From NCBI GenBank assembly GCA_036703275.1, contig DATNPK010000026.1, positions 1 through 64,000 of the forward strand: 64,000 nucleotides of DNA. Direction: 5' to 3'. This document shows positions 5,389 through 62,714 of the stretch, piece after piece. Positions within the stretch are counted from its first letter, which is position 1, and each line of letters begins with the position of its first letter. This stretch comes from Coleofasciculaceae cyanobacterium (GTDB taxonomy: Bacteria > Cyanobacteriota > Cyanobacteriia > Cyanobacteriales > Xenococcaceae). The notes under the pieces are model-generated. The model did not search any database. It was not told where the DNA came from and saw only the letters and a list, made by a program, of their open reading frames with translations. The position numbers and the translations under genes were made by a program.

Positions 5389-5512
5389 TTTGCGACGCGA
5401 AGGACGCGCCTCCAGGCGCTAATCATGCACGGGCTAGTGCTAAAGCATACCGCTTCGCATATCCTTTAGGGCGTAGCTTCTTGAAGCTTATTCCTTAGGA
5501 CTTATTACCCAA
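5389..5512. repeat. Interspersed palindromic repeat, copy R1
   Basis: A mosaic of short modules: GGACGCGCCTCCAGGCGCT, then GCTAAAGCATACCGCTT, then CGCATATCCTTTAGGGC. The same modules recur in both orientations near 6460, 22996, 34357, 40190, 60366 and inside a gene at 60859-60928. It lies between chlM and the helicase gene. Confidence 0.8.
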
Positions 5513-60267: not shown

Positions 60268-60365
60268 GCAAATTATTGCCAGCAGATCATCAGCTCTAGA
60301 TTAAACACAAATTAAATTACCCTCAGCAAAAATGGGGTTGTTTTTGACCGAGAGGGATGCCCTAA

Positions 60366-60423
60366 AGGATATGCGAAGCGGTATGCTTTAGCATTTGCGA
60401 AGCTTATCCTTTAGGACTCGCTC
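60366..60423. repeat. Interspersed palindromic repeat, copy R6
   Basis: CCCTAAAGGATATGCGAAG, GCGGTATGCTTTAGCATT and GCGAAGCTTATCCTTTAGG, with the outer arms (CCTAAAGGATA/TATCCTTTAGG) inverted to one another. The 35-bp core from 60358 to 60392 reappears inverted in copy R7 (60893-60927) with one mismatch. Confidence 0.8.
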
Positions 60424-60571: not shown

Positions 60572-60678
60572 ATATATAAAACAAACACACAAGAAATTAA
60601 GTCGATCTAGAGAATATTTACTGAAGATCGAGGCAATATTTAGATTTGTTTCCGCAGTAATCTTTAACTTTTCAAACT

Positions 60679-61266
60679 ATGCAAAAATTTATTTCTTTTC
60701 CCGCTTTTTTAACCGCTGTTATTGCTACGGGGTTAATGGCTATACCAACCAAAGCTGTTCCGAGCCAGCGAGAAAAAGTATCTGTAATTGACACAGCAGA
60801 AACTTATAATCTTGACGAGCAGACAACAAATTTGGCTGCAAGCTTTGATTTGGGCGATTGGGCGCAGCCCACGGACGCGCCTCCAGGCGCTAATGCTAAA
60901 GCATACCGCTCCGCATATCCTTTAGGGCTTGGCGATCGCACCTGGTTAAATACTGCTCGTGATAGCCCAACTGATGACCTTAATCGAATTATTGGTCTTA
61001 CTGGCTTAGGTGTTGGTACGGGATTTATTGCTTATCGTTTATATCGTGCTTATCAACCTGCTTCAACTAATTTGCCTTACGGCAATACTAATACTTTATT
61101 ACTCGATCGCCTTAGTCCAAAACTACGTAAAACATTATTGCAATTGGTACACAATCGCGAAACTGCAAACCGATTATTAACTGGAACGATGTTAAGTCAC
61201 GCCGATCGTTCTCCTAACTGGTTAGCAGAGAAAGTTATCTACGATTTAAAACGCGATCACCGATGA
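60679..61266 (+). CDS. Secreted protein with in-frame insertion of an interspersed repeat
   Basis: 195 aa. A signal peptide (SFPAFLTAVIATGLMAIPTKA near 6-26) is followed by a spacer, then residues 58-86, which are encoded partly by a copy (R7) of the interspersed repeat, then a C-terminal domain (LNRIIGLTGLGVGTGFIAYRLYRAYQP; LLDRLSPKLRKTLLQLV). Function unknown. The codons for LGD occur at 58-60 and again at 84-86, flanking the insert of 26 codons. The repeat adds PPGANAKAYRSAYPLG and similar residues without shifting the frame. Confidence 0.85.
   Translation: MQKFISFPAFLTAVIATGLMAIPTKAVPSQREKVSVIDTAETYNLDEQTTNLAASFDLGDWAQPTDAPPGANAKAYRSAYPLGLGDRTWLNTARDSPTDDLNRIIGLTGLGVGTGFIAYRLYRAYQPASTNLPYGNTNTLLLDRLSPKLRKTLLQLVHNRETANRLLTGTMLSHADRSPNWLAEKVIYDLKRDHR
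60859..60928 (+). repeat. Interspersed palindromic repeat, copy R7, inside a coding gene
   Basis: GACGCGCCTCCAGGCGCT, TAATGCTAAAGCATACCGC and TCCGCATATCCTTTAGGGC are the modules of copy R1 and the inverse of R6. It is the only intragenic copy in the window. Confidence 0.85.
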
Positions 61267-62372: not shown

Positions 62373-62714
62373 TTAGTAGCCGTGAGGAAGGTATTGATTT
62401 ACATCAACTTGGTCTTGAACATTAGTTTGATTCGCATCTTGAACGATTGCGTTACCAGTACCAATAGCAGCAGCTTCGTTAGCGTTTAATTGGACTGAAG
62501 TTTGAGCATCGGGAGTGGTATAACCGTAGCCACCTAAGTCTAATTGGTTTTGGTAACTACTTTGGTCGGTGTTCTGGTGGATGAGGTTACTAGTACCGAC
62601 AGCAGCAGCCGAATTAGCGTTGTTTTGAATGCTAGTCTGAGCGTCTTGAGCGAAAGCAGTTAGAGGAGCGAAAGCGATAACAGCAGTAAGAATGGATAAT
62701 GTAGTTTTTTTCAT
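62373..62714 (-). CDS. Secreted protein made of two Q/N-rich repeats
   Basis: A 113-aa protein. After a signal peptide (TTLSILTAVIAFAPLTAFA) there are two repeats of about 42 residues: DAQTSIQNNANSAAAVGTSN... and DAQTSVQLNANEAAAIGTGN..., each with a glutamine/asparagine-rich stretch, and a C-terminal NQYLPHGY. The repeats recall curli-like amyloid units (Q and N spaced around a Gly) but no homologue is asserted. A cell-surface or biofilm role is a guess. A good ribosome site precedes the start. Confidence 0.75.
   Translation of the reverse strand: MKKTTLSILTAVIAFAPLTAFAQDAQTSIQNNANSAAAVGTSNLIHQNTDQSSYQNQLDLGGYGYTTPDAQTSVQLNANEAAAIGTGNAIVQDANQTNVQDQVDVNQYLPHGY

Follow-up and report, generated by a model that had tools for sequence, protein, structure and literature searches.

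The 78-bp segment that interrupts a protein gene of the window, by which is meant the whole 64,000-nucleotide stretch of Coleofasciculaceae cyanobacterium DNA that was analysed (contig DATNPK010000026.1), is very probably a nested mini-element targeted to the cyanobacterial octamer HIP1, and it is probably translated with its host gene; this confidence covers what the segment is and where it went in, not the enzyme responsible. A first-pass annotation of the same DNA had described the segment as a mobile palindromic element inserted in frame, similar to the Rickettsia palindromic elements (RPEs). The observation is confirmed and the interpretation as an insertion is well supported, with HIP1 as the target, and the support comes chiefly from other copies and less from the window gene. 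The finding joins two kinds of repeat that are already known, the one inserted in HIP1 and the palindromic repeats located within genes. Within the reach of these searches, three things are new: HIP1 alleles that occur both filled and empty in genes, growth by nesting, and in-frame copies spread over enzymes of cyanobacteria. None of the literature titles surveyed concerned HIP1 inserts or in-frame palindromic repeats in cyanobacterial proteins, although the original SDR5 paper lay outside this survey, which is no proof of novelty.

The insert and its host gene

The host is an open reading frame (ORF) of 195 residues at 60679–61266 (+), which matches no family in a Pfam scan and whose N terminus resembles a signal peptide by eye; its predicted product includes the peptides GDWAQPTDAPPGANAK and SAYPLGLGDR. 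The insert is in frame and is bounded on the left by the half-site GCGAT (60854–60858, +) and on the right by the HIP1 octamer, GCGATCGC (60932–60939, +), and within the whole filled site (60854–60939, +) the two GCGAT copies stand 78 bp apart. The left half-site is followed by the hairpin TGGGC-GCA-GCCCA and then CG (60859–60873, +), which form the first part of a 24-nt unit, and by a 54-nt nested insert placed at CG|C of that unit (60874–60927, +). The unit's end before HIP1 is C-TTG (60928–60931, +), part of a second small hairpin, CGC-TTG-GCG. The nested insert is itself a 30-nt module split by an inner 24-nt module, GCTAAAGCATACCGCTCCGCATAT (60895–60918, +), which is missing from a 54-nt copy at C21. 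Taking the two nested pieces of 30 and 24 nt out of the window copy leaves exactly the 24-nt unit GCGAT|TGGGC-nnn-GCCCA-CGC-nnn|GCGATCGC.

The basic form of the element is a unit of 24 nt, composed of a 5-bp hairpin with a 3-nt loop followed by CGC-nnn-GCG. Its entry into HIP1 would double GCGAT (or, read symmetrically, the central AT) and leave a full HIP1 at the right end. Growth would take place by insertions within the element, and the most plausible order in the window unit is the 30-nt module followed by the 24-nt module, giving 78 nt.

Two LGD tripeptides had drawn attention to the segment, at codons 58–60 (TTGGGCGAT, 60850–60858) and 84–86 (CTTGGCGAT, 60928–60936). Both do read LGD, and their offset of 78 bp corresponds to the 26 added codons that had been proposed, with no stop in between. 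The accompanying idea of a target duplication does not hold for 9 bp: the two LGD blocks agree in seven of nine letters, the exact repeat at the two ends of the insert is GGCGAT, and HIP1 accounts better for this repeat. Modules of the insert do occur elsewhere in the window, as had been claimed. An intergenic copy of the inner module (the R6 of the annotation) lies at 60359–60399 (−), with two mismatches over 41 bp (95% identity), and a gapped match at 5402–5472 (+) (its R1) contains the 30-nt and inner modules, also between genes, in another arrangement. A repeat search confined to window positions 60600–61200 found none.

The description of the insert as palindromic stands in part. It is a chain of small hairpins, and two 24-nt units that were folded did better than shuffled DNA (z −2.73 and −2.18), whereas the whole 86-nt insert folded no better than shuffled DNA on either strand (z −1.28 and −1.13). 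The folded unit with the stem TGGCC/GGCCA gave a three-way structure, its HIP1 halves paired with each other and enclosing two hairpins; a different fold was favoured by the unit with TGGGC.

The window protein has a match in 26 of the 60 genomes searched, its own included. The 26 residues are absent from all 23 other homologues aligned (two of them identical, and L037 lacking the region), and the linker region is variable in every homologue of the alignment. Orthologues free of the insert therefore exist, but the exact 26-codon gap that had been predicted is not cleanly seen. The nearest relative, G002, lacks about 41 codons and has CGATCGC at the site. In G011 a single indel joins the flanks, but only in an alignment made by eye, MAFFT having split the region into several gaps, and nothing resembling HIP1 is present at the site. 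Since the window gene by itself does not fix the exact size of the insert, other copies were examined.

As a separate observation, the window also encodes at 62373–62714 (−) a secreted-looking protein of 113 residues with repeated QTSxQxNANxAAAxGTxN motifs, which appears curlin-like by eye.

A family of 24-nt units in filled and empty HIP1 sites

HIP1 occurs 546 times in 453,910 bases of the window's own genome, compared with 2.5 occurrences expected from base composition, and the next commonest palindromic octamer occurs 78 times; only half of the GCGAT sites in this sample are HIP1. In the same genome, GCGATTGGGCNNNNCCCACGGACGCG was found at nine places, all free of mismatches even though up to three were allowed, and the reversed control gave none. 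Seven of these nine copies end at HIP1 (six at 78 bp and one at 54 bp), and eight of the nine are intergenic. The first-pass annotation had expected the modules to be shared across the genome, and this was borne out by 43 matches at E ≤ 0.001, query included, two of the others among them being 98% identical over 86 bp. Inner-module matches are present in 11 of 30 genomes, of which 10 belong to the genus (13 genomes, own included). The modules occur in many arrangements, and many copies of the inner module that lie in genes are not bounded by HIP1.

A looser pattern of the 24-nt unit was matched 106 times, in 9 of the genus's 13 genomes, against two for the reversed control. From part of these matches, 85 distinct places were read individually. 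The inserts range from 24 to 93 nt, with 34 places at 24 nt, 2 at 25 nt, 7 at 27 nt, 4 at 51 nt, 4 at 54 nt, 8 at 78 nt and 7 at other lengths; at the remaining 19 of the 85 places GATCGC is absent within 100 nt. One of the seven, L323 (G004:C334), a thiolase by eye, fits the pattern by chance and was dropped. Among the 65 bounded inserts that result, 60 have a length divisible by three and 60 terminate precisely in HIP1. Removal of the nested part by a script returned the 24-nt unit in all nine rows of the 85 that fitted its pattern, the window included.

Conservation of the stem is visible as well. Among the 97 distinct sequences in the matches listed for an order-wide sample, the two mismatches both fall in the stem in 38, and in 34 of these the changes are compensatory, with eight stem types, when about 3.7% would be expected; owing to the kinship between copies, the p-value should not be taken literally. 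It is by such compensatory changes that the stem is kept. In the order-wide sample the unit was found at two mismatches or fewer in 32 of 291 genomes, the reversed control being zero in every row, and its spread is patchy, with no match in 14 genomes from other genera of the window's family. A plain 24-nt spacing peak was also sought in the 454-kb sample and is not visible (four GCGAT-to-HIP1 distances at d = 24, mean 2.27); when the stem condition is added, three of those four pairs stand out.

Several minor observations concern the copies themselves. Their number differs strongly between species (0 to 24 matches in the order-wide sample), and in one distant genus, g45, TGGCC/GGCCA is the predominant stem, as though a separate stem had been amplified in each lineage. 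At L359 and L362 in G011, units follow one another at a spacing of 51 bp inside ORFs, which suggests tandem multiplication too. At L117 (G000:C7), two copies share their left flank and differ in the version of the element that they hold, which looks like an exchange of modules.

Comparison of orthologous genes reveals the same sites filled and empty. In a UvrD/PcrA-like helicase gene, HIP1 is intact in all nine unfilled relatives examined and 24 nt are added in three others, G006, G003 and G009 (L386, L389 and L390), each with a different hairpin sequence, which hints that a single HIP1 site was hit more than once. A lipoprotein gene has at one place a bare HIP1 in G002, the 24-nt unit in G006 and a 54-nt unit in G003. 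Further examples are an AAA ATPase (27 nt more in G011 than in G005, which has HIP1), a Prok-JAB gene (exactly 84 bp more in G006 than in G002, where the site reads GCGATCGC), a laccase-like gene (54 nt more in G003 than in G002, again with the octamer) and glucosamine-6-phosphate deaminase (75 nt more in G002, with HIP1 exactly there in six of eight orthologues). In a polyketide synthase (PKS) gene of the window's own genome, about 29–32 codons are missing from four orthologues at 81–85% identity.

Altogether, 19 of the 33 unfilled orthologues compared have an exact HIP1 at the empty site, and the rest have a near-HIP1 sequence or none. The proportion varies by gene. It is 0/3 in acetate kinase, where two of five orthologues (L407 and L408) stayed unaligned as their anchors were not found, 1/4 in the laccase-like gene, 1/3 in Prok-JAB and 0/2 for L179, whose empty site reads GCGATRATCGC. 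L278, an orthologue of L222, is outside the 33, the L222 copy not being bounded by HIP1. The glucosamine-6-phosphate deaminase gene of G006 (L266, G006:C113:45300–45910) has a GTAGTAG-type repeat of about 130 bp just after the HIP1 site; this gene contains stops and looks broken.

Copies inside protein genes

Further in-frame copies, which the first-pass annotation had anticipated, are found for the module and the short unit alike. The inner module lies in frame within credible genes at 17 of 124 loci (30 + 34 + 60, a few of them overlapping). The hosts are the window gene, three PKS, a hydantoinase B, two nonribosomal peptide synthetases (NRPS), a Rieske-type oxygenase, a TonB receptor, a lipoprotein, a Prok-JAB protein, the end of a methyltransferase, glucosamine-6-phosphate deaminase, a transposase, a laccase-like protein, and two unknowns, with names beyond the Pfam-scanned ones assigned by eye. 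Loci L076, L078, L089, L106 and L111 were left out of the 17, the module being at the ORF edge, upstream of the likely start or in a doubtful ORF. Of 10 module hosts scanned with Pfam, seven gave strong matches and Prok-JAB one at the cut-off, while the window protein and the lipoprotein gave none; a family was assigned to 9 of 10 scanned hosts of 24/27-nt copies.

According to the printed Pfam ranges, the insert falls inside a domain in acetate kinase, the UvrD-like helicase, a TonB receptor and the condensation domain of an NRPS; in the other scanned 24/27-nt hosts it lies outside the domain or at its edge. In comparison with solved structures, the match of hydantoinase B covers both flanks of the insert and breaks there, the NRPS condensation domain has a gap at the insert, and in acetate kinase (L318) and the helicase (L329), whose inserts are of 8 residues, the gap takes in the insert. 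For glucosamine-6-phosphate deaminase the structural matches start after the insert and are uninformative on it.

Using ORFs of at least 130 residues, 25 of 41 copies of 24/27 nt are located in ORFs, and 7 of 22 longer copies (Fisher p 0.036). The latter seven include L337, which is the place of L106, retained in the ORF counts of bounded inserts and probably upstream of the true start, as well as L310 and L364, whose lengths are not multiples of three. For reference, 359 of 481 HIP1 sites (those of the 546 with flank enough for the count) and 811 of 1140 random positions lie in such ORFs. Insertion would be nearly neutral and yet is not fully so, since the share of 24/27-nt copies located in ORFs is smaller than that of HIP1 sites in general.

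All six reading frames are used by the in-gene copies. The 24-nt copies leave four to six of the six frames open, whereas 10 of 13 copies of 54, 78 or 84 nt are open in only two, which may explain why most of these longer copies stay intergenic. A design that keeps all six frames open was considered and rejected: 19 of 34 copies show it compared with 43% in shuffled DNA, only slightly above. As almost every bounded size is divisible by three and stops are scarce in the short forms, copies landing in genes would be read through as extra residues, and they would persist where the protein tolerates an added loop or linker.

Known repeats and routes of movement

The nearest named relative of the unit is the cyanobacterial SDR5. 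Elhai et al. reportedly described it in 2008 as 21–27 nt in size, with a secondary structure backed by compensatory changes, a range that includes the sizes found here (24 nt at 34, 25 nt at 2 and 27 nt at 7 of the 85 places, with nine longer forms that contain the unit). In Elhai 2015 (PMC4390886), SDR5 is a small dispersed repeat that is present in Nostoc and its relatives and sits inside HIP1, between the octamer's nucleotides 3 and 4. The unit is likewise a short repeat within HIP1, and its register, GCG|AT..GCG|ATCGC, fits that of SDR5, other registers being equivalent since GCGAT is repeated. Different from SDR5 as described there are the Xenococcaceae/Pleurocapsa-type genomes, the filled and empty alleles, the nested forms that reach 54, 78 and 84 nt, and the in-frame copies in conserved proteins.

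The likeness to RPEs that had been suggested holds for the occurrence of palindromic copies both in frame in conserved protein genes and between genes, and not for the closest kinship. RPEs are 105–146 bp long with terminal inverted repeats and are tied to no target octamer in the available part of PMC2229807. The unit here is 24 nt (range 24–93 nt) inside HIP1, and by eye it has no terminal inverted repeats except the HIP1 halves. The same observation bears on a comparison with MITEs, which share terminal inverted repeats with an autonomous transposon; the candidate partners sought were Y1 genes. A third group, the REPs tagged with GTAG or CGTC, includes some that lie in frame in repair and other genes, among them the UvrD/REP helicase, and cyanobacterial GTAG families exist (PMC3733652). 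Both are short tagged hairpins of which some are in genes, UvrD-type genes included, but the tag here is GCGAT, half of HIP1, and the repeat-flanked Y1 gene that is a RAYT trait was not found, as 0 of the 30 Y1 loci read carry a bounded element. The main text of PMC3733652 mentions neither HIP1 nor GCGATCGC, and its available part names no cyanobacterial protein with a REP.

The explanations that compete with a HIP1-targeted mini-element concern partly its name, partly its movement and partly its existence. Whether the 24-nt unit is SDR5 itself, already reported inside HIP1, is about evenly balanced; it would leave only the nested growth and the in-frame copies as additions and is compatible with the preferred reading. 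The matching register and the agreement in size favour this identity, and compensatory stem changes, reportedly a trait of SDR5 as well, are seen in the unit; the patchy spread with no match in the family's other genera weighs against it. That the 26 residues are an ordinary linker native to the protein family and lost elsewhere is extremely improbable. The linker does vary in all homologues and G002 lacks more than 26 codons, but the DNA is 98% identical over 86 bp to intergenic copies, other genes have exact empty sites, the residues are absent from the 23 other homologues aligned, and the 60 genomes searched hold no distant homologue with these residues and no DNA similarity; the native linker was rejected.

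For the movement of the HIP1-targeted element, the best guess, which is tentative and rather doubtful, would be a single-strand transfer of the IS200/IS605 or RAYT type, in which GCGAT serves as tag and target and a hairpin-tagged segment of 24 nt ending in GCGAT is moved in trans to a position 3′ of GCGAT by a Y1/HUH-type enzyme. The terminal inverted repeats limited to the HIP1 halves, the hairpin directly after a 5-nt tag, a layout that IS200/IS605 sites resemble, the identical 5 nt at both ends and the use of both orientations are consistent with this route, and Y1_Tnp matches were found in four of four genomes searched, at 38 places. The idea that a Y1 transposon carries the element next to its own gene was, however, rejected: in the 30 loci read of those 38 places no bounded element adjoins, three contain short pieces of the inner module and one, L292, a GCGAT hairpin lacking the right half, so the preference for a single-strand mechanism is weak. 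In addition, seven of the nine copies in the window's own genome end in a full HIP1 when only half of GCGAT sites are HIP1, which argues that more than GCGAT is recognised. Alternatives would be a staggered 2-nt cut at the HIP1 centre, an RNA intermediate, or recombination between HIP1 sites. The last, an exchange of copies flanked by GCGAT and HIP1 through short homology or gene conversion with no dedicated enzyme, is unlikely. It draws on a link of HIP1 to site-specific and illegitimate recombination (PMC4390886), on the many module arrangements and on the two differing copies at one duplicated C7 site; the three different hairpins at one UvrD HIP1 in three relatives speak against it, and the 24-nt length with compensatory stems suggests a defined element.

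HIP1 by itself is a frequent octamer whose role is debated (PMC4390886); here it is an occupied docking site, the place of insertion. A broader view, on balance improbable, is that HIP1 octamers genome-wide could be docking sites for frame-keeping, translated mini-elements that rebuild HIP1 each time, the two sustaining each other, so that segments of 8 codons and more would be added to cyanobacterial enzymes and some sites, such as the UvrD-like one, would be hit repeatedly. The open question of the role of this over-represented octamer becomes partly testable by comparing filled with empty alleles. Protein-coding palindromic repeats are extended from Rickettsia and REP-rich bacteria to free-living cyanobacteria, and in the cyanobacterial case the target site is defined and stages of growth can be seen (empty, 24, 54 and 78 nt).

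At L020 (1501–1540), L074 and L071, with their flanks, the inner module appears by eye to be enclosed by another palindrome of greater length, approximately GGGGCGxTTCGC ... GCGAAxxGCCCCTAC, one end of which resembles GTAG. This palindrome is perhaps a cyanobacterial GTAG REP that had in its turn entered a gene.
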